IMG/VR virus record: IMGVR_UViG_3300030382_002450
Location: 1-30,852 of that record
Direction: 5' to 3' (one strand)
Origin: a virus
DNA: 30,852 nucleotides
The notes below the pieces were generated by a model. The model worked only from the letters and a program-made list of their open reading frames with translations. It was not told the DNA's origin and ran no database searches. Below, in pieces: positions 2,651 to 17,075 of this stretch. The stretch's first letter is position 1, and every line of letters starts with the position of its first letter. Both the position numbers and the translations under genes were made by a program.

Positions 2651-2801
2651 CTTCAACTCCTACTTCATGCTCGGGCACATCCCGTCCCACTGGAAACGAT
2701 TCCATGCACCAAGGGCAGTGGCCCATCGTCCTCCCAGGATGTGAGATGTCCTGGTAGTACGGCCACCGTAAGATTGGTGGCCCTGAATTAGAACAGTCCA
2801 T
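2607..2801 (-). CDS. Small Cys/His protein of unknown function
   Basis: A 64-residue protein with a CPWC knuckle near residue 29 and later His residues (VPEHEVG), suggesting one metal site. I do not recognise the family. Its ATG shares one base with the TGA of the RusA gene (TGATG at 2799-2803), the standard junction in this operon and the main support for it being real. Its 3' end overlaps the next gene by 44 bases. Confidence 0.5.
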   Translation of the reverse strand: MDCSNSGPPILRWPYYQDISHPGRTMGHCPWCMESFPVGRDVPEHEVGVEDVPYEKTMQGMQSK

Positions 2802-3214
2802 CAGTCTGCCTCCTTAACCGTTATCATCGTCATCGGTTCCGGCCCGAACCTCTTCTCCGCTGTCAACTTCACCACCACCGTGTCGTCCTTGAGGACGGTT
2901 CCCTTGACCCCGTCGATTGCCGCCTTGACCATGTTATCGAGGTCAGGCTTACGGACTAAGGCTTCCTTCAACCGTCGCTCACGGCTGGCTTCTTTCTTCG
3001 GCAGATTGTTGGGGTAGCTCCTAATGAACTCCAGATGAATCTCAACGGCTGTTTCTATGAGTGGCTTGTTGCGCCATACCTCCAAGCACTTGGCCTTCAC
3101 GGTTTCCTGATACGCCTTGAACTCCAGATACCCAGGCGTGGGGGCTGACATCCTGACCCATACCTGCCACGGCTTGGGTTCTCCAGGGACAGTCATATTT
3201 ATGAGTTGACTCAT
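2801..3214 (-). CDS. rusA: RusA-family Holliday junction resolvase
   Basis: A 137-residue protein, close to the usual 110-140 of RusA. These homodimeric, metal-dependent endonucleases cut Holliday junctions and branched replication products in the cytoplasm; in phages they resolve recombination intermediates before packaging. The signature is present: KPDLDN at residues 89-94, Asp101, and the Asp pair 110-111 in VLKDDTVV, covering the catalytic acidic residues of the family. An N-terminal VPGEPKPWQ strand and a C-terminal KRFG segment also fit. It sits in the same leftward operon as the primase-helicase and the SSB-like gene. The ATG at 3214 has only a weak ribosome site, so coupling from the gene 7 bases upstream is likely; ATG at 3196 is an alternative. 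Confidence 0.9.
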   Translation of the reverse strand: MSQLINMTVPGEPKPWQVWVRMSAPTPGYLEFKAYQETVKAKCLEVWRNKPLIETAVEIHLEFIRSYPNNLPKKEASRERRLKEALVRKPDLDNMVKAAIDGVKGTVLKDDTVVVKLTAEKRFGPEPMTMITVKEAD

Positions 3215-7857: not shown

Positions 7858-8550
7858 CTAATCCTCCTCATCCTCTTCTTCTGATTCTTCTGCCGCTAAC
7901 GGCTCGATAGGCACGTTCGATACGTTGTGGAAATACTCGTCACGGTACTGCCGGAAGATGTCCCAGTCGATACCACCATCTTCAGACATGACATTAGGTA
8001 ACAGCTTGGCTATCGCCAACTGGGCGATGATGTTCTCGCAGTGGCCCTTGACCACGCCCTCGACCTGGAAGGCCGGTGGGGTGCCTGCCGGAGCCGCTGG
8101 TGCCCCTGCTGGAGGTGCAGTCCTGGGTGTTTGCTGGGCACCGGCGTCCACCTGGCCGTTAGAGGGCACGATAGACAACAGTTCCCAGAAATAACTGGTG
8201 GCCCAGTTCGGGTCGTTAGGACTCCCGTCTTGCTTGGTAGCCTTGAAGGTGTCCCGGTGCAGTTGCACCGCCACCACGTCTCCAATCTCCACCACGTTAG
8301 ACTCCCAGTTGGTGACGCTACCATCCGGCTCAGTCTTGGAGTGTTGCACCACCGCCTGGGCACCATCGGCATCAGGGTAGACCAAGATAGCAGGGTCTCT
8401 GGGGTAGAGATTGGTGGGGTAGTTCGACCCCGGCAGTGGGGTCTGTAAGGTCAAGACCCAACCAGTGTTCTTCTGGTTCGGCCCCTTGCCAGAGACACGG
8501 GTAGTCCAGTTCAGATATTCGGGTACAGATATGATTGCTTCAGTAGTCAT
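7858..8550 (-). CDS. Probable single-stranded DNA-binding protein, SSB-like
   Basis: A 230-residue protein. Residues 1-130 are beta-rich with aromatic residues (WTTRVSGKGPNQKNTGWVL, FKATKQDGSPNDPNWATSYFWELL), consistent with an OB-type fold. A flexible Pro/Ala linker follows (about 138-160), then a helical region. The end is strongly acidic (AAEESEEEDEED), like the acidic tips SSBs use to bind partner proteins. I do not see a direct match to the bacterial SSB family, so the assignment rests on layout and on the neighbouring replication genes. AAGGAG lies 5 bases before ATG 8550. A phage structural role is less likely in this early operon. Confidence 0.55.
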   Translation of the reverse strand: MTTEAIISVPEYLNWTTRVSGKGPNQKNTGWVLTLQTPLPGSNYPTNLYPRDPAILVYPDADGAQAVVQHSKTEPDGSVTNWESNVVEIGDVVAVQLHRDTFKATKQDGSPNDPNWATSYFWELLSIVPSNGQVDAGAQQTPRTAPPAGAPAAPAGTPPAFQVEGVVKGHCENIIAQLAIAKLLPNVMSEDGGIDWDIFRQYRDEYFHNVSNVPIEPLAAEESEEEDEED

Positions 8551-8559
8551 AGATTCTCC

Positions 8560-8694
8560 TTAATATTTTGGGTTATACGGATAGATTACATTCTCTGAGC
8601 CACAAGCCGCGCACTCGATGATGCTATCTACCGGCACTATCCGGTGGCGTATGGCCCCACAGTCCTCACACTTCATGATTGCCAGTTTGCCCAT
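8560..8694 (-). CDS. 44-residue zinc-ribbon protein
   Basis: The protein begins MGKLAIMKCEDCG and has a second pair, CAACG, about 20 residues later, giving a four-Cys zinc ribbon that fills nearly the whole protein. GGAGG lies 5 bases before ATG 8694. The TAA (8560-8562) overlaps the ribosome site of the SSB-like gene. It is the first gene after the promoter at 8712-8741, with a predicted leader of only about ten bases. The function is unknown; such ribbons often bind nucleic acid or RNA polymerase. Confidence 0.7.
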   Translation of the reverse strand: MGKLAIMKCEDCGAIRHRIVPVDSIIECAACGSENVIYPYNPKY

Positions 8695-8711
8695 GTTTGC
8701 CTCCTTCCCTT

Positions 8712-8741
8712 ATCATAGTCGATACCCCTGCCCACTGTCAA
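8712..8741 (-). promoter_or_regulatory. Sigma-70 type promoter, leftward
   Basis: On the minus strand, TTGACA (8741-8736), an 18-base spacer and TATGAT (8717-8712) form a near-consensus promoter. It would start transcription near 8705, directly before the ribosome site of the 44-residue zinc-ribbon gene. The 12-mer CTGACGCAAGGG upstream of the -35 (8756-8745) includes the stop codon of the preceding gene and recurs at the promoter near 10150. Confidence 0.8.
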
Positions 8742-8752
8742 TAGCCCTTGCG

Positions 8753-9076
8753 TCAGGGCTTGGCTAGTTGCTCAGTCATCGAGACATAGTCGTCGGCCCA
8801 CATGGCAATCTCTTTAGAGATATCGTGCATATCTTCGTAGTAGGCCAGCATATCCTCCATGATGAACTCGACCTTTTGCTGGAAGGTCTCCTTCTGCTTC
8901 CGGTTGAACCTAGCGAGTTCTTTCTTGGCGTTCTCAGCCGCTTTGATGGCGTCCAACTCACAGTGCTGGGTGAAGGTGCCGGTGCGACTGCAAACGTACC
9001 AGACGGTGTTGCCTGCGCCCGAACCTGAGACCAGGGTCTCTTGCCAGTAGTCGCCAATCTCTTTGTCTTTCATCAT
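8753..9076 (-). CDS. Hypothetical helical protein
   Basis: A 107-residue protein. A short N-terminal domain includes a single VCSRTGTFTQHC pair (residues 28-39); then comes a long helix rich in Lys/Glu (IKAAENAKKELARFNRKQKETF) and a Met/Asp/Tyr-rich end. Two adjacent ATGs (9076, 9073) overlap the TGA of the upstream gene; AGGGGGG precedes them. The family is not recognised. The gene ends directly at the promoter of the next transcription unit. Confidence 0.6.
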   Translation of the reverse strand: MMKDKEIGDYWQETLVSGSGAGNTVWYVCSRTGTFTQHCELDAIKAAENAKKELARFNRKQKETFQQKVEFIMEDMLAYYEDMHDISKEIAMWADDYVSMTEQLAKP

Positions 9077-9189
9077 GCCCCCCTCTTGTAGATGACGTGG
9101 ATACTTCCCTTACACTCGCCGTTGCACTCGTCGTGGCCGTGGTTGTCCTTGAGGATTGCCCCACTGCCGCCTACTTTCCTCTTGGTCAT
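9073..9189 (-). CDS. 38-residue His/Cys protein
   Basis: A tiny protein with a metal-site-like stretch, NHGHDECNGECKGS (about residues 16-29), between short basic segments. GGAGG lies 7 bases before ATG 9189. Its start shares a base with the upstream TAA (TAATG) and its TGA overlaps the next start, so both junctions have the coupled form seen throughout this operon. The function is unknown. Confidence 0.55.
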   Translation of the reverse strand: MTKRKVGGSGAILKDNHGHDECNGECKGSIHVIYKRGA

Positions 9190-9542
9190 TACGCCGCCTC
9201 CTTCCTTGGTGGTTGGGGTATTTCGTAGAGCCTGCTATCCGGCTGGTTCTCTGGCAGTGTGCCGCAGACATCGCAGATGGGGACGGTCTTGGAGTGTATA
9301 TAATCCTTCTCGCACTCGCAGTCCCAGTATTCCGGTGTGGTCTCGCCGTCGTTCTCAATCTCCCTGACTTCGATAGGGTCACTGTCCATCAAGCGGAGAG
9401 TGTCCTTGTCATACTGCAACCGGAACGGCTCAAGCCTCTCCTCGTCAACTATCTCTATGGCCTCCTCGTCGTCTTCTGCGTCCACGATGTAGTCGAACAC
9501 GACCTGTGCATAATAGTGGTGCTGAACTAAGAACCTTGGCAT
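9189..9542 (-). CDS. DpnD/PcfM-like start with a C-terminal Cys cluster
   Basis: A 117-residue protein starting MPRFLVQHHYYAQVVFDYIV. The segment VDAEDDEEAIEIVDEE (residues 21-36) resembles the small DpnD/PcfM-type phage domain, where a strand pair is followed by an acidic helix; the match is from memory and moderate. The second half has DCECEKDY and PICDVCG, a likely zinc site. GGAGGAG lies 5 bases before ATG 9542; the frame extends upstream, but only through the overlapping neighbour. The function is unknown. Confidence 0.6.
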   Translation of the reverse strand: MPRFLVQHHYYAQVVFDYIVDAEDDEEAIEIVDEERLEPFRLQYDKDTLRLMDSDPIEVREIENDGETTPEYWDCECEKDYIHSKTVPICDVCGTLPENQPDSRLYEIPQPPRKEAA

Positions 9543-9679
9543 GATGTCTCCTCCTTCTGTTCTTCTTTGCAGTAGCACTCGCCGTATTCCCGGTACAGCC
9601 ACTTGGGTGTCTCGTCATTCACCGGCATGGCCCGACAGTTCGGGCACTTGGGTGGTATCAGACTGTAGTCGTACTCCAT
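9527..9679 (-). CDS. 50-residue Cys-rich protein
   Basis: The protein starts MEYDYSLIPPKCPNC and has a second ECYC pair near residue 37, giving a zinc-ribbon-like arrangement with a WLYREYG spacer. GGAGG lies 4 bases before ATG 9679. It overlaps the next gene by 16 bases. The family is unknown. Confidence 0.6.
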   Translation of the reverse strand: MEYDYSLIPPKCPNCRAMPVNDETPKWLYREYGECYCKEEQKEETSCQGS

Positions 9680-9688
9680 CTCGCCTCC

Positions 9689-9880
9689 TTATCGGTATGT
9701 CGCCTGGGTTACTTGCTCATCGGAGGGAGACTCGCCGGTTAGTTCCTTGAGCAATTGCCGGAGACAACGCTCAATCTTTACTTGAGTCCCCTTGCCCATC
9801 ACCAACTTGTTGCTTTTGGTAGCCCTCACCTGGCCCTCTTGCAATCCAAACAGTAAGTTCCTAGCCTGCTCGTATTCCAT
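9689..9880 (-). CDS. Hypothetical small protein
   Basis: A 63-residue, basic and helical protein (MEYEQARNLLFGLQEG..., KIERCLRQLLKELTGE). No domain is recognised. Its start region, AGGAGG then ACTAG then ATG, is identical to that of the gene directly upstream, suggesting a duplicated ribosome-site cassette. It starts one base after the neighbour's stop. Confidence 0.6.
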   Translation of the reverse strand: MEYEQARNLLFGLQEGQVRATKSNKLVMGKGTQVKIERCLRQLLKELTGESPSDEQVTQATYR

Positions 9881-10087
9881 CTAGTCCTCCTTCTTATCTA
9901 CCCATCGAGTGACCCAACGGCGACCTTCCTTGACGGTCACTAGGGTGCGGCTCGACATCTTACGGCACTCCGGTGAGCAGAACTTCTGCCGGTCAGTAGA
10001 GGTTGTGCCAATCATCGGAACCTTGCAGACCTGGCACCTCTTGGCTATCTCGCGTAGGTGCTTTATGTGGTCGTACTCTTCTACCAT
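9881..10087 (-). CDS. FCS/treble-clef-like zinc-finger protein
   Basis: A 68-residue protein. CQVCKVP (residues 18-24) and KFCSPECRK (about 35-43) give a four-Cys site of the treble-clef type, in which the FCSPECR stretch is typical. A basic tail follows (EGRRWVTRWVDKKED). It probably binds nucleic acid or protein; no specific function is known. GGAGG lies 5 bases before ATG 10087. It is the first gene after the promoter at 10122-10150. Confidence 0.65.
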   Translation of the reverse strand: MVEEYDHIKHLREIAKRCQVCKVPMIGTTSTDRQKFCSPECRKMSSRTLVTVKEGRRWVTRWVDKKED

Positions 10088-10121
10088 CTAGTCCTCCTTC
10101 ATTTTTGGTGCCTCTTCCCTT

Positions 10122-10150
10122 ATCGTAGCACAATGGATTACCCCTGTCAA
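10122..10150 (-). promoter_or_regulatory. Sigma-70 type promoter, leftward
   Basis: On the minus strand, TTGACA (10150-10145), a 17-base spacer and TACGAT (10127-10122). Start is expected near 10115, giving a leader of about 28 bases. The upstream 12-mer CTGACGCAAGGG (10165-10154), which contains the preceding stop codon, and the downstream ATAAGGGAAG match the promoter at 8712-8741, so the two look like copies of one cassette. Confidence 0.8.
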
Positions 10151-10161
10151 GGCCCCTTGCG

Positions 10162-10368
10162 TCAGTGGCTACTTAGCTTCCACTCTGGGTCAAGGTAGTC
10201 GCGCCCGACCTTCAGGACTCTGACGTGGCGTGTGAACCTGCCGTTCTTAGAGACCCCGATGGCCCGGCCACAGCCAGGGCAGACGGTGCGCCTCTGGAAG
10301 CCAAGGGCTGAATCCTTGGGAGGTGTCTTCAGGCTCCGTGAACACCACCTCTTTCTAAAGGGCCACAC
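10162..10368 (-). CDS. Small basic CxxC protein
   Basis: A 68-residue, strongly basic protein with CPGCG near residue 30 and a following NGRFTRHVRV, so one knuckle plus His may bind a metal. Many Arg/Lys suggest nucleic-acid binding. The start is GTG 10368 with GGAGG 4 bases upstream, a site nearly identical to the next upstream gene's (GGAGGCACC). It ends at the promoter cassette near 10150. Confidence 0.55.
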   Translation of the reverse strand: MWPFRKRWCSRSLKTPPKDSALGFQRRTVCPGCGRAIGVSKNGRFTRHVRVLKVGRDYLDPEWKLSSH

Positions 10369-10377
10369 GGTGCCTCC

Positions 10378-10614
10378 TTACCAGTCACGATTGACCCCGT
10401 CGATTAGAACGGGAACGAGGTCATAGACATCATGGTCGCAGTAACAGATGCCGGTGCAGTCGCACTCAGGCCAACGTGAGACTATCTGCTCAGTGTCGTA
10501 GTCGTCTATGTAATAGACCCGTCCATTGACGGTGATGTAAACGCACCCTGCGATGTCGTCATCAACCTCGACGACCAGTGGCTCTTGACCTTTTCTTCGG
10601 ATGTCTACTTTCAT
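10378..10614 (-). CDS. Hypothetical acidic protein with a Cys cluster
   Basis: A 78-residue protein. Beta-type N-terminus (MKVDIRRKGQEPLVVEVDDD), a YITVNGRVYYIDDYD strand pair, then PECDCTGICYCDHD (about residues 50-63), dense in Cys, and an acidic end. A similar Cys run occurs in the 12382-12549 protein. GGAGG lies 4 bases before ATG 10614. It is the outermost gene of this leftward operon; I could not find a consensus promoter upstream. Confidence 0.6.
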   Translation of the reverse strand: MKVDIRRKGQEPLVVEVDDDIAGCVYITVNGRVYYIDDYDTEQIVSRWPECDCTGICYCDHDVYDLVPVLIDGVNRDW

Positions 10615-11040
10615 GGTGCCTCCTTCTTGACGTTGTTGGTTTGGGTATGCTAGTGTTACCGGAGCCGTCTCTTCTGGCCTATCGTGGGTTCCTTATTGAG
10701 GTTGTGTTAAACCTGCTGAGGAATCCTGAAGAGACGATAGGTCGATGGGGCGGCTATTTTTTTGGGCGGGGTTCTGCCGATACCGATACACCAGAGACAT
10801 AGAGGAGCGTGGTCGCCAGCTTGTGGCTGGAGAGACCTTAACCCAGGTTGCCCCTGGAGCTATAAGATACCGGACGGTGTTGTTAAAGTTGCGACTACGG
10901 CATACGGTGGGGAGGGGAGGGAGGATAGCTACTTGTGACTATCTCTTACCCCTCGTCGGGAGGGGAGTCCAGAGGGGAACCGATGAGGTTCCTCTTTGGC
11001 CCTTGCGGGTAGCCGTTAAAAATTTGGTATCCTAGTAACT
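10615..11040. other. Non-coding stretch before the terminase small subunit gene
   Basis: No frame here has a credible start plus protein-like composition. It separates leftward early genes from the rightward terminase small subunit gene. It contains overlapping inverted repeats at 10667-10741, where one right arm can pair with either of two left arms, and a G-rich tract around 10907-10925 (runs of 4, 4 and 3 G). A hairpin with a two-base bulge lies near 10971-10994, and an A/T-rich box at 11016-11030. It probably carries regulatory or packaging signals; I found no tRNA fold. Confidence 0.4.
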
Positions 11041-11078
11041 ACCTGAAGTCTCAAGGGGCGTTGCCCACGACTTCAGGT
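11041..11078. promoter_or_regulatory. Inverted repeat ACCTGAAGTC/GACTTCAGGT before the terminase small subunit gene
   Basis: Two perfect 10-base arms (11041-11050 and 11069-11078) around an 18-base spacer, ending 21 bases before ATG 11100. The core 8-mer ACCTGAAG is the unit repeated seven times before the terminase large subunit gene. It is likely an operator or a terminase recognition site. Confidence 0.6.
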
Positions 11079-11099
11079 GCGCTGTTACGAGGAGAAGCT

Positions 11100-11618
11100 A
11101 TGTCACTTGAACGGAATTATAAGTTGACGGCCAAGCAAATGAAGTTCGCTGAACTCGTGGCCCTTGAAGGATACAAGCTCGTCCACGCCTGGCGTCTCGC
11201 CTACGACACTTCACCGGATACCCCTATGACGACCTGTAGACCAGCGGCCTCCAAGTTAGCCGCTACTCCCCGTGTCGCTGAATATATCCAGCAGTTGCGT
11301 GATGATGCTCGTGAAGAGCTTATCAGGCAGAATACGTGGTCGAAATGGGACGTGATTGCACGCGCCACGAGGCATATGGAGGGTGCCGCCAATGCCAAGC
11401 AATGGAGTGCGGTGAACGGTGCCCTCCAGCAAATCATCGGCGTTGAAGGTCTGGATGCGGCCAAGAAGGTGGAGGTCAGCGGCTCTGTCGAGGTCAATCA
11501 TTATGCTCAGTTGTCGATGGACGAACTGAAAGCGTTAGCCGAACAGGCCGATGCCCTACCACCTGCCGATGATGATTCGATTGTTGATGTGCAAGGCCGT
11601 CTAGTCGAGGACGACTGA
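11100..11618 (+). CDS. terS: Terminase small subunit
   Basis: A 172-residue protein of the Terminase_2 type, which recognises phage DNA and hands it to the large subunit for packaging. The N-terminal region reads YKLTAKQMKFAELVALEGYKLVHAWRLAYDT, the usual 'T..Q..F...YL..G.....A...AGY' pattern leading into a helix-turn-helix (SKLAATPRVAEYIQQLRDD). An oligomerisation region and an acidic end (ADALPPADDDSIVDVQ) follow. ATG 11100 has GAGGAG 5 bases upstream; an earlier TTG in frame lies inside the inverted repeat and is unlikely. Oddly, this + strand gene stands alone between leftward early operons, 5.5 kb before the large subunit gene. Confidence 0.85.
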   Translation: MSLERNYKLTAKQMKFAELVALEGYKLVHAWRLAYDTSPDTPMTTCRPAASKLAATPRVAEYIQQLRDDAREELIRQNTWSKWDVIARATRHMEGAANAKQWSAVNGALQQIIGVEGLDAAKKVEVSGSVEVNHYAQLSMDELKALAEQADALPPADDDSIVDVQGRLVEDD

Positions 11619-11631
11619 CTGTTCTTGGGGA

Positions 11632-11913
11632 TTACTCCTCCCACCACTCCTCATTGATGGGCACAAGATGTGGTAGCCCGTCTTTGTACTCGATTGTCAC
11701 TGGCTCGCCGTCAGCATCGATGGCTACTGTGTCGCTTTTGGTCAGTAATCTCTGGCCCTTGCCAAGCCCCAAGCCCACGCCGTACATATCGAAACATGGT
11801 TCGCACATATTGGCCCACGGCCCCATCATAGTTTGACCATCGGCATATGCTGGCGTAGGTTCCTTGCAAAAATCGCAATTCGGTATCTTGTCTACTACAA
11901 CGGACGTTGTCAT
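11632..11913 (-). CDS. Zinc-site phage protein (CDFC...CEPCF...GLGLGKGQ)
   Basis: A 93-residue protein. NCDFC (residues 12-16) and MCEPCFDMYGVGLGLGKGQRL form the recognisable core of a small family widespread in actinobacterial and other phages: two Cys pairs around a GPWANMC stretch, then a Gly-rich GLGLGKGQ loop. The function is unknown. An acidic C-terminus ends in EEWWEE. GGAG lies 5 bases before ATG 11913; the longer upstream frame overlaps the neighbouring gene and is rejected. Convergent with the terminase small subunit gene, 13 bases away. Confidence 0.7.
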   Translation of the reverse strand: MTTSVVVDKIPNCDFCKEPTPAYADGQTMMGPWANMCEPCFDMYGVGLGLGKGQRLLTKSDTVAIDADGEPVTIEYKDGLPHLVPINEEWWEE

Positions 11914-12095
11914 GATTTCTCCTCGTCTTCGATTGTGTCTACCAGAGTCTCGCTTACGGTACAGTTTCCGCTCATCGAGACTATGAGTTGGTCGAAGTCC
12001 CAACCGGCTGGTGTTGTTTTAGAACTTAGTGGGCCACCAAAATCTTGGTCTACGACAAAGCCCTCTATCTTGATGCGGTAAACTTTGATGCTCAT
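11910..12095 (-). CDS. Hypothetical small protein
   Basis: A 61-residue protein with strand-like segments (IKVYRIKIEGFVVDQDFGG, FDQLIVSMSGNCTV) and an acidic end (VDTIEDEEKS). No family is recognised. GGGAGAG lies 5 bases before ATG 12095. Its stop overlaps the next start in the ATGA form, supporting a coupled pair with the zinc-site protein. Confidence 0.6.
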   Translation of the reverse strand: MSIKVYRIKIEGFVVDQDFGGPLSSKTTPAGWDFDQLIVSMSGNCTVSETLVDTIEDEEKS

Positions 12096-12097
12096 GG

Positions 12098-12304
12098 TTA
12101 CTCTCCCTCTGCAAAATACGGGTTGTCGTCGCTGAACACGATGATGCTGGTCTGCGGGTCTAGCCCGTCATGCTTGCAGGCCAACTCCCACCACACAGCC
12201 CGGCAGACTGGGTGGAAAGCTGACCAGTTGGCGCGGCCAGGCAGGTTAGTCCTGGCGTACTCTTGGAACTGTTTGGTCTCCTCTACGGTTAGGTCACGGA
12301 ACAT
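12098..12304 (-). CDS. Hypothetical small phage protein
   Basis: A 68-residue protein. The stretch FQEYARTNLPGRANWSAFHPVCRAVWWEL resembles a helical motif seen in small phage proteins with an R-x-x-Y...WHPVYR-like core; its role is unknown. An acidic end follows (SDDNPYFAEGE). The start is ATG 12304 with GGAGACACC directly upstream, identical to two neighbouring genes. Its leader contains structured element A. Confidence 0.6.
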   Translation of the reverse strand: MFRDLTVEETKQFQEYARTNLPGRANWSAFHPVCRAVWWELACKHDGLDPQTSIIVFSDDNPYFAEGE

Positions 12305-12328
12305 GGTGTCTCCTTGCTGTTTAGATTA

Positions 12329-12386
12329 GAGCATTAGCGGCCCGATACTGAGGCTGAGAGACTCAGCCCCAGTGGCAGTCACTAAC
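12329..12386 (-). ncRNA. Structured intergenic element A
   Basis: On the minus strand the order is segment GTTAGTG (12386-12380, containing the TAG stop of the upstream gene), hairpin GGCTGAG/CTCAGCC (arms 12368-12362 and 12358-12352), then a small hairpin with arms GGGC/GCTC and loop CGCTAAT (12339-12333). The loop can pair with the first segment over 7 bases, two of them G-U. This is the pseudoknot layout shared by seven of the eight elements. Confidence 0.5.
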
Positions 12387-12549
12387 TGTTGGTGGCGCAC
12401 TCTGGTTTACACTCCATACCACAGTCACAACCGGAGCAGTCGCATTCGATGTTGTATCCCTCTGGCACGATGCGGATGGTGTCCCATTCTTTGAGGAATG
12501 AGAAGTCGGTTATCTCCGTTAGTTGCATGGGGCTGTATTCGTACTGCAT
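12382..12549 (-). CDS. 55-residue protein with a dense Cys tail
   Basis: It begins MQYEYSPMQLTEITDFSFLK and ends in ECDCSGCDCGMECKPEC (residues 35-51): seven Cys in 17 residues, more than one zinc site needs. This could be a metal cluster site or a disulfide-rich end. The upstream gene at 10378-10614 has a related PECDCTGICYC run. AGGAG with ACACC precedes ATG 12549. The TAG stop lies inside element A. The function is unknown. Confidence 0.6.
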   Translation of the reverse strand: MQYEYSPMQLTEITDFSFLKEWDTIRIVPEGYNIECDCSGCDCGMECKPECATNS

Positions 12550-12562
12550 GGTGTCTCCTGTT

Positions 12563-12640
12563 GGGTCGTTAGATTTGGTTAGTGACCCACTCCAGAGGCT
12601 GAGATACTCAGCCCCTGAGATTGGTTACTGACCGGTTAGT
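12563..12640 (-). ncRNA. Structured intergenic element B (divergent copy)
   Basis: It contains the same central hairpin arms as element A, GGCTGAG/CTCAGCC (12613-12607 and 12603-12597), between genes in the same position. The flanks have GGGTC/GACCC arms (12588-12584 and 12567-12563). The stop-codon segment and the loop here are direct repeats (ACTAACC) and not complementary, so the pseudoknot pairing is not supported in this copy. Confidence 0.35.
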
Positions 12641-12905
12641 ATTGTTTGGCGTATGGTGGGAGTTGGGCGTTCTGGGTCATGCCTAGCTCTAGACTGCCCA
12701 CTTGGAGATGCTCCCAAGGCCACCGCTTGTATGATTGGAGTGTGCCGCCCATGTGGTCATCCCGATGCTGTTTCTTCCCAGAGTTGAAAGCCAGGAAAGC
12801 GGTGCGGCCTCCGATATATCCGGCCCCTTTATTCAAGCGGATTGAGAGTACGAATCCCCGTTTGCCGTATTGGTTCCGGCTGAAGCTGGCTCGTAGTCGT
12901 GGCAT
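12636..12905 (-). CDS. Hypothetical basic protein
   Basis: An 89-residue protein starting MPRLRASFSRNQYGKRGFVLSIRLNK, Arg/Lys-rich, with a GYIGGRTAFLAF segment and Gly, Trp and His later. No domain is recognised; a nucleic-acid-binding role is possible by charge only. I chose ATG 12905 because GGAGACACC directly precedes it, and because an earlier ATG at 12941 lies inside the -10 box of the promoter (12937-12966) and would not be transcribed. Confidence 0.6.
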   Translation of the reverse strand: MPRLRASFSRNQYGKRGFVLSIRLNKGAGYIGGRTAFLAFNSGKKQHRDDHMGGTLQSYKRWPWEHLQVGSLELGMTQNAQLPPYAKQY

Positions 12906-12936
12906 GGTGTCTCCTTCTTTTTGGGTGTCTTTCTGT

Positions 12937-12966
12937 ATCATAATCGATGCCTTTTTGAGTTGTCAA
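12937..12966 (-). promoter_or_regulatory. Sigma-70 type promoter, leftward
   Basis: On the minus strand, TTGACA (12966-12961), an 18-base spacer and TATGAT (12942-12937), the same hexamers and spacing as the promoter at 8712-8741. Start is expected near 12930, about 25 bases before ATG 12905. GGCAAG upstream is a weaker match to the CGCAAGG block of the other two promoters. Confidence 0.8.
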
Positions 12967-12984
12967 GGGGGCTTGCCTAGGGTA

Positions 12985-13356
12985 CTAGATTTGTGTCTGG
13001 AAGATGCCAAGCTGGCCCCGGTATGGCACCGGGTCGGGGTAGGCTACCGGGTCGGCTAGGGTTATGCCTGTGGGGCCTTCGAACCACGGCGAGTCGGATT
13101 CTGTGACTACGCCGGTAATGGTGGCTTCGCCCACGATGGCACCTGTCGGCAGGTTTGCGGGTATCTCAATACCCAGGCTGGCTATGTAGTCGCGTTGAAC
13201 CTTGAAACGGCTTGTATCGTCGTCTCTGCGCTTCCCAGCGTGTATCCTGACGCGCCCCCGGTGCTTGTAGTGCCACCGGGAGCGATTCTCTACGTCTTTC
13301 CCGTGATTCAGTATCAGCCAGGCCCAAGGTTGCTGGATGCTGATGGTCTCCATCAT
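12985..13356 (-). CDS. ASCH-domain protein
   Basis: A 123-residue protein, close to the typical 100-130 for ASCH domains, which are beta-barrel folds related to PUA and thought to bind RNA or modified nucleotides. The signature is clear: ISIQQPWAWLILNHGKDVENRSRWHYKHRGRVRIHAG at residues 5-41, then TGAIVGEATITGVV (71-84). The roles of phage ASCH proteins are not settled; some act in nucleic-acid modification. Two adjacent ATGs (13356, 13353) follow a weak AAGGA. The gene is the last before the promoter at 12937-12966. Confidence 0.85.
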   Translation of the reverse strand: MMETISIQQPWAWLILNHGKDVENRSRWHYKHRGRVRIHAGKRRDDDTSRFKVQRDYIASLGIEIPANLPTGAIVGEATITGVVTESDSPWFEGPTGITLADPVAYPDPVPYRGQLGIFQTQI

Positions 13357-13366
13357 TCGCCGTCCT

Positions 13367-13483
13367 TCAGTTTTTGTATTTGGCGTTTAGTATCCTGGTT
13401 AGACTCACTCGCTTAGTGCATGAATGACACGTGACAGAGTCTTTTAACGCTCGCTTAGTACAGTATTTACAAATCATTTTCAT
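13367..13483 (-). CDS. 38-residue zinc-ribbon protein
   Basis: A basic mini-protein, MKMICKYCTKRALKDSVTC and then HSC, so CKYC and CHSC form a compact four-Cys site at residues 5-22; the remaining 16 residues are basic. AATGAGG precedes ATG 13483, 2 bases after the stop of the upstream gene. The size, Cys spacing and junction support it, but the ribosome site is only fair. The function is unknown. Confidence 0.55.
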   Translation of the reverse strand: MKMICKYCTKRALKDSVTCHSCTKRVSLTRILNAKYKN

Positions 13484-13485
13484 CC

Positions 13486-13644
13486 TCATTCGCCATCCTT
13501 GACGAACTGCGCCCAGCCTCCGGCGTAGTGTCGGTTGATGCCTGCGTGTATCTGTGCGTCTGATAGGCTGGCGATGTCCTCTGGTTCAAGGTCTCCCCAG
13601 ACGCATTCAGAAATCCAGATTCGTGCCTGTTCTAGTGTGTCCAT
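13486..13644 (-). CDS. Hypothetical small protein
   Basis: A 52-residue acidic protein, MDTLEQARIWISECVWGDLE, ending in INRHYAGGWAQFVKDGE. The second half (IHAGINRHYAGGWAQF) looks like a small helical phage domain. Its ATG overlaps the upstream TGA by one base. It ends with the same Asp-Gly-Glu-stop sequence as the upstream gene. The function is unknown. Confidence 0.55.
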   Translation of the reverse strand: MDTLEQARIWISECVWGDLEPEDIASLSDAQIHAGINRHYAGGWAQFVKDGE

Positions 13645-13742
13645 CATTCGCCGTCCTGGTCTGGCTGTGGTAGTCGTGGCATAGTGCCGCCGCCGTATAT
13701 GATACTGAGGACGTCGTCGTGGATGTGGGTCGTGTTCTTCAT
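13644..13742 (-). CDS. 32-residue hypothetical protein
   Basis: A very short protein, MKNTTHIHDDVLSIIYGGGT, ending MPRLPQPDQDGE. GGAG with TACCCACC precedes ATG 13742. It is directly downstream of structured element C, which supports it as the regulated gene, and its TGA overlaps the next ATG. No family is recognised. Confidence 0.5.
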   Translation of the reverse strand: MKNTTHIHDDVLSIIYGGGTMPRLPQPDQDGE

Positions 13743-13767
13743 GGTGGGTACTCCAAATTAAATTTAT

Positions 13768-13824
13768 CGGTCTAATCTGACCGCCCCAGAGGCTTATATA
13801 TAAGCCTCTGAATCAGTAGATTAG
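13768..13824 (-). ncRNA. Structured intergenic element C
   Basis: On the minus strand, segment CTAATCT (13824-13818) contains the TAA stop of the upstream gene. The central hairpin is a perfect 24-base palindrome (13810-13787), then CGGTC-AGATTA-GACCG (13783-13768). The loop AGATTA is fully complementary to TAATCT of the first segment. A/T-rich bases and the ribosome site of the 13644-13742 gene follow. Confidence 0.65.
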
Positions 13825-14009
13825 TCTTGCATTGGCGCAACGTAGAAATCATGTATCTTTAAGTATCTGACCATGTCTCCAACTGCCTGTAGTCTATCGC
13901 TCCGGCATGGGAGGCCCGTGCCGTCAGCATCGCAGGATAAACCTTCGTAAATTCGCTTTCCAAGTTCGATTAATTCCGCCACTTCTGTGTCGTTCAGTGT
14001 TCCTGGCAT
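13821..14009 (-). CDS. Hypothetical small protein
   Basis: A 62-residue helical protein (TEVAELIELGKRIYEGL) with two Cys in LSCDADGTGLPCRSD (about residues 25-39) and a VRYLKIHDFYV segment. The family is unknown. AGGAG lies 7 bases before ATG 14009. Its TAA lies in element C and its leader contains element D. Confidence 0.6.
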   Translation of the reverse strand: MPGTLNDTEVAELIELGKRIYEGLSCDADGTGLPCRSDRLQAVGDMVRYLKIHDFYVAPMQD

Positions 14010-14035
14010 GGTGTTACTCCTAGGGCTAAATTTAT

Positions 14036-14096
14036 CGGTCTAGTCTGACCGTGTCAGCGGGTCAACATTAGCTGACCCGCTGAACCAGTAGACTAG
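14036..14096 (-). ncRNA. Structured intergenic element D
   Basis: Segment CTAGTCT (14096-14090) holds the TAG stop of the upstream gene. The central hairpin has arms CAGCGGGTCA/TGACCCGCTG (14082-14073 and 14064-14055), then CGGTC-AGACTA-GACCG (14051-14036). Compared with element C, the segment has G for A and the loop has C for T at the matching place, so pairing is kept: a compensatory change. Confidence 0.65.
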
Positions 14097-14398
14097 GCTT
14101 TCCAGAAGTTTAGGGAGTAGCTATTTTGAGGCTCTGCGAATACTAGCCGCCTATCGAATAAAAACGTCGGCTCTGAGCCTGTGTAGCCGTCGGCATAGTA
14201 TTCCTGGTTAAAGATATCCTCGCCACCTGTGGCGGCTAGTGTCCACTCATAAGGCCCATACTCCCAGACTACTTGCCAACCGTTGCCGTATTCTGTCGGG
14301 CGTACTGTCACGTTTTCGCCGCCTGGCAATTGTCTGATGGCTCTGGCCGTAGCATTAGCCGCGCCTTTTGGCGTTTTTGCTGATATTCTTGCTGTCAT
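14093..14398 (-). CDS. Hypothetical protein
   Basis: A 101-residue protein. The N-terminus is basic and Ala-rich (MTARISAKTPKGAANATARA); a beta-type middle follows with Trp and Tyr (GNGWQVVWEYGPYEWTLAATGG), then an aromatic, acidic part. No domain is recognised. GGAGAG lies 7 bases before ATG 14398; a longer upstream frame runs through element E and is rejected. It shares its ribosome-site cassette (TTGGAGAG..CTCAAAATG) with the gene at 14483-14782. Confidence 0.6.
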   Translation of the reverse strand: MTARISAKTPKGAANATARAIRQLPGGENVTVRPTEYGNGWQVVWEYGPYEWTLAATGGEDIFNQEYYADGYTGSEPTFLFDRRLVFAEPQNSYSLNFWKA

Positions 14399-14425
14399 TT
14401 TGAGACTCTCCAAGTGTAGATTTTT

Positions 14426-14486
14426 CGGTCTAGTCTGACCGCCCCAGCGGGTCAACATTAGCTGACCCGCTGAATCAGTAGATTAG
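14426..14486 (-). ncRNA. Structured intergenic element E
   Basis: It has the same central hairpin, including the loop, as element D. The first segment is CTAATCT (14486-14480, with the TAA stop of the upstream gene) and the small hairpin loop is AGACTA (14436-14431), giving one A-C mismatch in the 6-base pairing. It looks like a recent copy mixing the C-type segment with a D-type loop. Confidence 0.55.
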
Positions 14487-14782
14487 ATTTTGCCTTGCCT
14501 GACCGGGAAGCTGACTAGCCATTTGACGTTATGGTGTGGCGAAGCTGGATTGATATTCTCGCCAGATAGTTTTTCGTAAACTCGAAATTCTGCCGGAGTG
14601 TAGGCGGTATTTGCGGCATTTCCCAGGCTGTATCCGACCCATGAACTATGACCAGGCACCTTGATGGTTATGTGCGTCTCTGAGTCTTGAACTACTGCCG
14701 CCCATGGCATCTCAAAGCCTGATAATTTTGCGAGCGTGCCTGATTTTTTGTCCTCTCTGGTTGCCATCGTGTACGTAGACAT
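14483..14782 (-). CDS. Hypothetical protein
   Basis: A 99-residue protein, MSTYTMATREDKKSGTLAKL, with beta-type strands (AAVVQDSETHITIKVPG, VKWLVSFPVRQGKI) and a Tyr-rich middle. The family is unknown. GGAGAG lies 7 bases before ATG 14782; an in-frame TTG at 14797 lies within the ribosome site. Its TAA lies in element E and its leader contains element F. Confidence 0.6.
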   Translation of the reverse strand: MSTYTMATREDKKSGTLAKLSGFEMPWAAVVQDSETHITIKVPGHSSWVGYSLGNAANTAYTPAEFRVYEKLSGENINPASPHHNVKWLVSFPVRQGKI

Positions 14783-14808
14783 TTTGAGTCTCTCCAAGTG
14801 TAAATTTT

Positions 14809-14866
14809 CGGTCTAATCTGACCGCCTCACAGGCTCAGAATCTGAGCCTGTGAATCAGTGGATTAG
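14809..14866 (-). ncRNA. Structured intergenic element F
   Basis: Segment CTAATCC (14866-14860) holds the TAA stop of the gp88-like gene. The central hairpin arms are CACAGGCTCAG/CTGAGCCTGTG (14852-14842 and 14838-14828), with a 3-base loop. The small hairpin is CGGTC-AGATTA-GACCG (14824-14809). Five of six loop-segment pairs hold. The central stem differs fully in sequence from C-E but keeps its shape. Confidence 0.6.
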
Positions 14867-15600
14867 GCGTCGATGGCTACGATTTTTCCGTCAACGATTT
14901 TCGTGACTAGTCGCACCACGAACCCGGCCGTGTCTTTTTTCGCCTTTGGGCCTTTAGCTTTCAAGCCTACAACTACGCCTGATTCGTCAAGGAATCGTAA
15001 ATCGTGTTCATCGCCGTTTATGACTGGCAAACCTAGCCAAGTATCAGGAATCTCATCAAATACTACGGCTACGTTTTGACCGGATTTGACCAGTTCGGTC
15101 ACTAGGCTATCAGGCGTATTTTCTGACCGTGAAAAAGTCAGATGATAGTTACTAGGCATGAGACCATTGGCGTGCTGTCTGGCACGTTTTACCGATTTGG
15201 TGTAGTCGTAAAATTGAACGTTTGGGAATAGTTCCGGCATGGTCTGGCCGTCAAAGCGGATGTGTTCCCATGCGTAATCAGTAGTCCCATTCAATCGTTC
15301 GGCCGTGCGTAGGCCTTTTTTGTCATTGCGTTTGATATTGTCTTGAGTCTCAGCTATCAGCTTTGCGCCAAATTCGGCACGATTATCATAGAAGAGGCTT
15401 GAGCGGTATTCCCTAGCCGCCTTGACCATAGGCATTCGCCCAGTGGTATCAATGCACATCTTGGCGCAGTCTGTCGCATCGGGACAGGCATTATGCCCTG
15501 ATTGCATAGCAGGCAAGGCGTACATTATGGACGTGCGGTATTCTTCGCTGAACGTGTTGGATTTTTCGATTTTCGCGGATGTGGTTAATAGTTCTGTCAT
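14863..15600 (-). CDS. gp88-family phage protein
   Basis: A 245-residue protein resembling the 'Gene product 88' family named from mycobacteriophages. The typical Cys motif is present: GHNACPDATDCAKMCID (residues 35-51, Cys39, Cys45, Cys49). AAREYRSSLFYDNRAEFGAKL, an LNGTTDYAWEHIRF segment, VQFYDYTKSVKRA and YHLTFSRSE follow in the order seen in that family. Its biochemical role is unknown; the Cys triplet suggests a metal or cluster site. ATG 15600 lies 8 bases after GGAG; a GTG at 15609 is too close to it. It is flanked by elements F and G. Confidence 0.75.
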   Translation of the reverse strand: MTELLTTSAKIEKSNTFSEEYRTSIMYALPAMQSGHNACPDATDCAKMCIDTTGRMPMVKAAREYRSSLFYDNRAEFGAKLIAETQDNIKRNDKKGLRTAERLNGTTDYAWEHIRFDGQTMPELFPNVQFYDYTKSVKRARQHANGLMPSNYHLTFSRSENTPDSLVTELVKSGQNVAVVFDEIPDTWLGLPVINGDEHDLRFLDESGVVVGLKAKGPKAKKDTAGFVVRLVTKIVDGKIVAIDA

Positions 15601-15623
15601 GGTGGACACTCCAATTTAAATTA

Positions 15624-15679
15624 GGCTAATCTAGCCGCCACAGCTTCTGAGATTCTCAGAAGCTGTATCAGTAGATTAG
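15624..15679 (-). ncRNA. Structured intergenic element G
   Basis: Segment TAATCTA (15678-15672) holds the TAA stop of the upstream gene. The central hairpin has 12-base arms, ACAGCTTCTGAG/CTCAGAAGCTGT (15666-15655 and 15651-15640). The small hairpin is GGC-TAGATTA-GCC (15636-15624), its stem changed from CGGTC/GACCG but still paired. The loop pairs with the segment over 7 bases. Confidence 0.65.
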
Positions 15680-16083
15680 AAATAGTGTTTGACGTTAGCC
15701 GCGTCGGCTTTGTCGCATGTCTCACACATTCCGGCAGGCTCACGCTCATAGATGAAATGGATACGCTCAGATATAGAATTGTGCCTGATTAGGTGGTCAA
15801 GTTCGCGCAGATTGTACTCGTAGCACATCTTAGCTTCGAGGTAGTCTGCTACGTACATTTGGCGCAGAGTGTCAGATACGTTGAATGCGACCATTTTTGC
15901 GTTTGCTTTGTTCTTACGCTCAAGCCAGCGATTAATCACGCCCATTTGATTCTCGCAGTCTGCTTCATGCTGGGTATAGGGTAATTCGATTGTCTGATTA
16001 AAGCTTAATTCTTGCGTCTTGTAGTCTTCTAGAATCTGTACTGGTAGCCAGTTTTCGTCCCTGGATGATACTGTCCAAAACAT
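15676..16083 (-). CDS. Hypothetical protein with a C-terminal Cys pair
   Basis: A 135-residue protein. An N-terminal strand region (MFWTVSSRDENWLPVQILED) is followed by helices rich in Tyr, Asn and Glu (LRQMYVADYLEAKMCYEYNLRELDHLI) and a GMCETCDKADAANVKHYF end, a single CxxC. No family is recognised. GGGAG lies 6 bases before ATG 16083. It is the first gene of this leftward array, and its leader contains element H. Confidence 0.6.
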   Translation of the reverse strand: MFWTVSSRDENWLPVQILEDYKTQELSFNQTIELPYTQHEADCENQMGVINRWLERKNKANAKMVAFNVSDTLRQMYVADYLEAKMCYEYNLRELDHLIRHNSISERIHFIYEREPAGMCETCDKADAANVKHYF

Positions 16084-16114
16084 GATGTACTCCCAAAGGT
16101 TGTATAAGATTTTC

Positions 16115-16174
16115 CGGCTATTAAATGAGCCGTGCCTGAGTACTGGAGCCAGTACTCAGAATCAGTCATTTAAT
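16115..16174 (-). ncRNA. Structured element H, the most divergent copy
   Basis: Segment ATTAAATGA (16174-16166) is followed by hairpin CTGAGTACTG/CAGTACTCAG (16159-16150 and 16145-16136) and then CGGCT-CATTTAAT-AGCCG (16132-16115). The loop plus its flanking base pairs perfectly with the segment over 9 bases, though all the sequences differ from C-G. No gene lies directly upstream, so the element belongs to the start of the downstream gene rather than to the end of an upstream one. Confidence 0.65.
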
Positions 16175-16325
16175 TCGTGCCTACGTTTCCGTGTTCACTA
16201 TCACTATCACGCCGTGATTTATCCTTAGTGGGAATTAACTAGTCCAGTAGGGCCATGGCCGCTCGTCACTGAACCACAGGATTTGGCTAGAGAGATATAC
16301 CGCTCTCGTTCGGATTCTCGCGCTC

Positions 16326-16364
16326 TAGCCGCTAGCTAGCCGCTGGTGATATCTGCTAGCCGCT
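16326..16364 (+). repeat. Three TAGCCGCT iteron-like repeats
   Basis: TAGCCGCT occurs at 16326-16333, 16337-16344 and 16357-16364. The starts are 11 and 20 bases apart, roughly one and two helix turns, placing the copies on one face of DNA as for initiator-protein sites. The last two share the longer GCTAGCCGCT. Confidence 0.4.
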
Positions 16365-16455
16365 GTCACTGACTAACTCACCGTCTGTATGTAATCGTTA
16401 TCGTTTATTGATTCACTATCTACCGTCCAATATTCAAATTTGAGACTGTGCCAAT

Positions 16456-16486
16456 ACACTAGCACGAGCCAATAGTGGGCTGTCAA
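16456..16486 (-). promoter_or_regulatory. Candidate leftward promoter with extended -10
   Basis: On the minus strand, a perfect TTGACA (16486-16481) is followed after 19 bases by TAGTGT (16461-16456), which has TGC directly before it (extended -10 form). The -10 and spacing are weak. It would drive the array starting at 16083, with a leader of about 365 bases that includes element H. Confidence 0.4.
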
Positions 16487-16959
16487 TACCCATTTCTAGC
16501 ATTTTAGAAATTGAATAGCCTACTCACCACGCCTAGCTCGTGCCTAGAAAACGAATTTTAACGAGTTTTTTCCACGCCTAAATTGGCCTGTGTCGCTATC
16601 ATCACAGATACCAGGCGACTAGGCCCTAGCCGTGGCCTATTTTCTGGCGATATCGGCTGTTGGTCTGGCGGCCGATGGTGGCTAGTTTTTCGCCGGTGGT
16701 GGCACAGCCTGGCCGACTTGGCCGACAGCCTGGGGTGGGTGCTAGTAGCTTGGAAATGTTGACGGGGGGGCATCCGGTGGTACCATCTTGGGGGCGGGTA
16801 CTGGTGGTGTAGTAGGGGTCTCAGCCCTACCATCTGAGTTTCTGAGATGCTTTTCTCAGCCCCATCTACTCTCGTTTCTGGTTGTTTTTTCGTATCTAGC
16901 TGTTTCTGGTTTCTGTATCGTCTTTCTGAAATTTCACGTTTCATATTTTTTGAAATAGC

Positions 16960-17075
16960 ACCTGAAGTTGCTTCAGGTCTTCAGGTTTGCTTCAGGTCGT
17001 GCCTACAGTAACTAGTAACTAGGGTCTTGGTAGTGGGTACCTGAAGCAACTTCAGGTTTCATATGAGCTTCAGGT
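16960..17075. promoter_or_regulatory. ACCTGAAG/CTTCAGGT operator cluster before the terminase large subunit gene
   Basis: Seven copies of the 8-mer in both orientations: 16960-16967, 16971-16978, 16979-16986, 16990-16997, 17039-17046, 17050-17057 and 17068-17075. Two 19-base palindromes, ACCTGAAGTTGCTTCAGGT (16960-16978) and ACCTGAAGCAACTTCAGGT (17039-17057), are exact reverse complements of each other. TAGTAACT (17013-17020) also recurs near the other cluster (11033-11040). It is a probable binding site array for a regulator or the terminase small subunit. Confidence 0.75.

Follow-up and report, generated by a model that had tools for sequence, protein, structure and literature searches.

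Folded elements near gene boundaries are known from several systems. RNase III cleaves the early precursor RNA of phage T7 at five sites, and R1.1 RNA is cut into products of 47 and 13 nt (PMC4858673). In phage T4, gp32 binds a pseudoknot that is followed by A+U-rich RNA upstream of its own start (PMC3014915). Repetitive extragenic palindromic (REP) elements lower translation only if they lie <16 nt from the stop codon (PMC12306157). The extended start-associated sequences of Cluster K mycobacteriophages are inverted repeats of unknown function found before some early genes (PMC3203893), and the PeSL cassettes of T4-like phages have hairpin-bearing gene boundaries tied to module shuffling (as cited in PMC4503421). 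Here, we analysed the virus record IMGVR_UViG_3300030382_002450 of IMG/VR, a whole entry of 30,852 bp hereafter called the window, in which a first-pass annotation had described eight hairpin-containing elements, A to H. We report that a previously unrecorded folded RNA element precedes most early genes of this phage, those genes being presumed early from the gene content. We propose that the elements may be RNase III-type maturation hairpins whose 3' arm would refold into a 5' cap after cutting, a reading to which we give a probability of about 45%.

The elements differ from the Cluster K repeats, which are 17 bp long, conserved in sequence and tied to a 13-bp start motif, and for which no pseudoknot or switch is described (PMC3203893).

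A covarying family of elements

The eight elements are indeed located on the minus strand at 12329-16174, between leftward genes (Table 1). A to G separate co-directional genes, and H sits in the 5' leader of the operon. We call P1 the outer helix, formed by an upstream segment (P1a) and a loop (P1b), P2 the central helix and P3 the small hairpin. The segment-loop pairings quoted for C (TAATCT/AGATTA), D (TAGTCT/AGACTA), G (TAATCTA/TAGATTA), H (ATTAAATGA/TCATTTAAT) and A (GTTAGTG/CGCTAAT, with two G-U pairs) were all verified in the sequence. E has the single A-C mismatch attributed to it, and the mismatch of F is a terminal C-A, such that CTAATC/GATTAG still forms six Watson-Crick pairs. B had been described as devoid of loop pairing, which we correct: GGTCAGTAACC pairs with GGTCACTAACC at 9 of 11 positions, with two C-A mismatches, within its long hairpin. 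It also retains the P3 stem, with a larger loop.

Relatives were drawn from metagenome contigs (L-numbered), whose samples we take to be deep-sea, judging from the sample numbers alone. In 22 aligned copies, 16 of the 19 P1 and P2 pairs are altered on both sides (6 of 8 in P1, 10 of 11 in P2), as against 8.2 expected from shuffling, and none of 500 shuffles matched that count. The compensatory changes announced for the segment-loop pair and the central stem are present. With the partner slid by one column as a control, at most 45% of the cells remained paired, as against 95% in the native register. Using one representative per distinct P1 segment, we found that the segments fit their own loops and not those of other elements (19 of 200,000 unrestricted permutations; 4 of 500,000 in the same register). 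P1 pairing is also supported in 10 gaps of distant contigs that were selected blind to P1 (permutation p 0.002), and new P1 pairs occur in relatives, namely TGATTCA/TGAATCA, TTAATCC/GGATTAA, GTTAAAG/CTTTAAC and TAACC/GGTTA.

The stems of the small hairpin change in step as well, with P3 arms matching only their own partners (0 of 50,000 permutations); a further P3 test took in distant elements partly picked for P3. In helices declared by hand, the sense strand shows 15 G-U versus 4 A-C, a bias that points to an RNA with the polarity of the genes; P1 taken alone is neutral (3 versus 3). The folding z-scores of the window elements range from -3.4 to -9.2. Judged from the aligned copies, the element is conserved as an RNA fold, with P1, P2 and P3 all maintained by compensating changes. 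The many diverged copies in one genome provide an unusually clear covariation record.

The long hairpin competes with P3

The first-pass annotation proposed a conserved pseudoknot or a two-state switch. The family of covarying RNAs, each with a segment-loop helix crossed by a small hairpin, is supported, but the pseudoknot is not established as the resident fold, and the option of two mutually exclusive states fits better. P1 and P2 nest with each other: because the CUG of the conserved CTGAT box pairs with CGG, P1a and P1b also close a nested hairpin around P2. The minimum-energy fold of all eight window elements is one long hairpin of ~22-25 bp, composed in order of P1, the inner CUG/CGG step, a small internal loop and P2. 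Its 3' arm also serves as the 5' arm and the loop of P3. Since P3 uses the same CGG strand, the long hairpin and P3 compete. CGG is invariant, as would be expected of a strand that can pair with either of two partners. Its downstream partner can switch, from GCTC directly after the loop in element A to GGCCC further downstream in the homologue at L218:3249.

ViennaRNA comparisons of nested folds favoured the long hairpin over P2+P3 by 0.8-8.4 kcal/mol. The probability of P3 in the intact RNA is <=0.08 in all tested copies except L190a (0.31), yet in the 3' fragment it does fold, with -3 to -11 kcal/mol. Across the family, the paired length is typically 21-25 bp, with a mean of 23.0 and a standard deviation of 1.1 over 31 hand-entered values. 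The same range was found in the sequence-unrelated elements of the distant terminase relatives L135, L137, L138, L177, L188 and L190.

Position relative to genes

The start of P1a is mostly within a few nt of the upstream stop codon, and the elements usually overlap that codon. P2 begins 8-15 nt past the stop (20 in one copy), and 1-5 nt separate P2 from P3. The interval between P3 and the Shine-Dalgarno (SD) sequence contains an A/U-rich stretch; it measures 11-16 nt in intercistronic copies, apart from one with 17 nt, and ~20 nt in copies from the leader. No open reading frame (ORF) ends upstream of H, and no leader peptide was found before it, and the absence of an upstream ORF indicates that an upstream gene is not required. 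The homologues of element A at L086:3980 and L218:3249 retain P1. P3 is lost in two copies without a nearby downstream gene (L168:763- and L218:3713+).

Two variants were noted beside the regular copies. A truncated copy at L119:2900-3060 (-) lacks P1a and P2, and P3 and the usual leader come almost immediately after the stop codon. At L007:8080-8150 (+), a 22-bp intercistronic hairpin past a stop codon and upstream of a GP88 gene does not have the P1/P3 layout and resembles a replacement element.

Possible maturation of the early mRNA

The T7 RNase III sites are also irregular hairpins of about two helical turns, and they occupy the leader and the early intergenic regions of a polycistronic phage mRNA. 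We refolded T7 gaps with the same software. R0.5, R1 and R1.3 gave 21 bp in 52 nt, 18 bp in 47 nt and 25 bp in 66 nt, respectively, and R0.3 gave a domain of 28 bp and 84 nt around a core of 18 bp. One folded site is in the leader and the others are between early genes, with R0.5 overlapping the gene 0.4 stop codon. The window elements share these traits of RNase III sites, i.e. an irregular hairpin of ~20 bp with an internal loop, at leader and intergenic locations of a polycistronic mRNA. The shared place, the helix length and the indifference to sequence make a signal for a double-strand nuclease a better fit than a ligand or protein site. Unlike at the T7 sites, the downstream strand is conserved here so that the 3' arm can refold; cleavage of these elements is a prediction, and the phages are unrelated.

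Each element could act in cis, as a signal carried by the leftward early mRNA. Co-transcriptional folding would yield a single irregular hairpin, about two helical turns in length, with a lower stem of 10-11 bp, a small internal loop and an upper stem of 11-13 bp. Host RNase III or a similar double-strand nuclease might cut the 3' side of the internal loop, splitting the long transcript into mRNAs of one or a few genes, as happens to the early mRNA of T7. With a cut at the place that corresponds to the T7 sites, the downstream RNA would begin at P3: the CGG strand, once released, could pair with the downstream CCG to form P3. The P3 hairpin would then start within 0-5 nt of the new 5' end, with the A/U-rich stretch and the SD sequence behind it, and such a cap would both protect and expose the downstream message. 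The cleavage, the refolding and the benefit to the downstream mRNA are all inferred. Refolding would explain why P3 is conserved despite its competition with a more stable hairpin. Also in favour of this proposal are the narrow range of paired lengths, the good 22-bp hairpins of B and L087e, the leader position of H, the loss of P3 from two copies that lack a nearby downstream gene and the RNase III gene of the MAG that contains a distant terminase relative. If this is true, T7-style mRNA punctuation has evolved in an unrelated, presumably deep-sea phage group, with a cut product that caps itself.

Several observations weigh against this proposal. The copy L086g has only 17 bp, a few elements folded differently when given wider flanks, and T7 R1.1 in its wider context gave only a 10-bp upper stem, not the known hairpin. 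The P1+P2+P3 pseudoknot, which lies outside the energy comparison, could rival the long hairpin, and the conserved CTGAT box and CGG could indicate a specific protein or ligand. The link to Chloroflexi hosts consists of one 42%-identical terminase in one metagenome-assembled genome (MAG).

Alternative explanations

According to a second reading, which we consider unlikely but the best placed of the alternatives, the element is a translational operator or two-state switch that governs initiation of the downstream gene. An RNA-binding protein of phage or host, or a ribosome ending at the stop codon inside P1, would select between the long hairpin and P3 or the pseudoknot, in a T4 gene 32-like manner. 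The overlap of P1 with the upstream stop in most copies, the start of P2 8-15 nt after it and the loss of P3 where no downstream gene follows are consistent with such control. So is the A/U-rich stretch between P3 and SD, by comparison with the T4 gp32 pseudoknot and A+U-rich RNA (PMC3014915); the elements likewise have A/U-rich RNA after a possible pseudoknot, upstream of the ribosome-binding site. Nevertheless, the gene 32 leader is a single copy before one gene with a known binder, whereas there are many copies here and the nested fold is more stable. Furthermore, the SD sequence is not part of either fold, there is no ORF upstream of H, the unpaired residues vary between types and thus provide no common binding sequence, and no single-strand binding protein family was matched among the window genes scanned.

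Less probable is a REP-like punctuation of the upstream gene, in which a stop-proximal hairpin slows termination or blocks 3' exonucleases. REPs resemble the present elements as multi-copy intergenic hairpins near stop codons, but they are conserved in sequence and are not known to adopt a second fold of the P3 type; here, it is the fold and not the sequence that is maintained, and one copy is in a leader. The distance of P2 from the stop in most copies falls within the <16 nt needed for the REP effect (PMC12306157), but H has no upstream gene, and neither P3 nor its fixed distance to the next SD would be explained.

More doubtful still, the repeats could be joints at the DNA level, as PeSLs or attC, that serve to shuffle early genes. 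The closely related contigs L087 and L092 do show a gene cassette gained at an element. Both flanks align (98.3% and 99.5% identity), but L087 carries an additional gene and an additional element. The L092 element is split between the two copies of L087, with its left part in the first and its tail in the other (L087:2500-2960 versus L092:8869-8953), which places the seam inside the element, and both resulting copies retain a perfect P2. In addition, gene order around the elements varies among relatives, and the window encodes a RusA-like Holliday junction resolvase at 2801-3214 (-), for which hairpin DNA at cassette seams could, speculatively, be a substrate. Shuffling alone does not predict the compensating changes, the bias for G-U over A-C or the fixed SD spacing. 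PeSLs have an early promoter and a terminator-like stem-loop, whereas neither a promoter nor an intrinsic terminator falls convincingly at the elements here. Cassette gain might rather be combined with the RNase III-type maturation hairpin: tentatively, and with the odds against it, the same module might be cut site, 5' cap and recombination seam in one self-refolding joint, which across this phage group would be conserved in its fold and not in its sequence.

Least probable is a static pseudoknot of P1, P2 and P3 formed together, with a mechanical role as nuclease block or insulator: P1 and P3 both covary, and some copies (L218:3249) show a classical H-type layout with an A-rich loop after P1, but every copy can form the nested hairpin, whose stability exceeds that of P2+P3, and B and L087e, poor pseudoknots without good loop pairing, keep good 22-bp long hairpins.

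Occurrence of the elements and possible host

Further copies were identified in the close relatives L006, L007, L086-L092 and L114/L218. The search of related phages with a covariance model, built on P2 and P3 only, returned copies with E-values down to 1e-20, plus a single copy in L168, a more distant relative. Scanning all loci with a simple descriptor produced many chance matches, and we therefore relied on the copies found by homology. Scans of the whole IMG/VR yielded 26 stretches for the type I pattern, of which only those already placed in this phage group look true, 3 for the type II pattern and 1 for the P3 tail. No homologues were found outside related phages by pattern, covariance-model, BLAST and Rfam searches. 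BLASTn against sequenced phage records detected no relatives of the region or of a single element. Rfam gave no match at the gathering score in the window, L086, L087, L218, L007 or L089, and nothing meaningful up to E 5; self-cleaving ribozymes and known riboswitches, looked for via Rfam only, gave no match.

Other candidate functions were rejected. Intrinsic terminators would have a GC-rich hairpin with a U tract after it on the sense strand, and no minus-strand terminator-like site was found within 8000-17000. Only 2 of the measured copies are open into the next frame, unlike a pseudoknot for stop-codon readthrough or frameshift. An early promoter within the element, a PeSL trait, was discarded after one weak, chance-level overlap (14029-14057, element D); a strong promoter-like site at 12966 falls outside the elements.

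The sole genome-collection relative of the window terminase, at 42% identity, is on a contig of a Chloroflexi MAG that also encodes RNase III, as do most bacteria. The phage group is uncultured and possibly has Chloroflexota hosts.

Genes and other features of the window

Protein family scans of the window matched genes for a primase-polymerase, TerL, TerS, RusA and the GP88 family; it has 0 tRNA genes. The leftward genes around the elements are listed in Table 1.

Table 1. Coordinates of the elements, adjacent genes and a promoter-like site in the window
Feature	Coordinates	Strand	Description
Element A	12333..12386	-	Long hairpin P1+CUG/CGG+P2, 22 bp; P3 GGGC-loop-GCTC at 12329-12343
Element B	12577..12633	-	Long hairpin 22 bp, two C-A mismatches in outer stem; P3 GGGTC/GACCC at 12563-12588
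Promoter-like TTGACA-18-TATGAT	12937..12966	-	Upstream of the 101-aa gene preceding B
ASCH-like gene (PHROG 3193)	12985..13356	-	Last in tightly packed block after C
Element C	13772..13824	-	Long hairpin 23 bp; P3 CGGTC/GACCG at 13768-13783
62-aa gene	13821..14009	-	Between D and C
Element D	14040..14096	-	Long hairpin 24 bp; P3 at 14036-14051
101-aa gene	14093..14398	-	Between E and D
Element E	14429..14487	-	Long hairpin 25 bp, one A-C mismatch; P3 at 14426-14441
99-aa gene	14483..14782	-	Between F and E
Element F	14813..14866	-	Long hairpin 22 bp; P3 at 14809-14824
GP88-family gene (PF17338)	14863..15600	-	Between G and F
Element G	15626..15679	-	Long hairpin 24 bp; P3 GGC/GCC at 15624-15636
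135-aa gene	15676..16083	-	After H; no family match
Element H	16120..16174	-	Operon 5' leader; long hairpin ~23 bp; P3 at 16115-16132

Promoter-like sites of the form TTGACA-17/18-TATGAT or TACGAT recur in the leftward block, at 12937-12966, 8712-8741 and 10122-10150 (-). Dense GTTAAC palindromic repeats (GGTTAACGGTTAACCGTTAACC) are present in related terminase contigs, at L130:893 and L131:1194 (+). Lastly, a leader motif of the AAATCTAA type precedes genes without a hairpin element at L089:11041, L007:9724 and L007:10000, and may be a separate translation-initiation feature.

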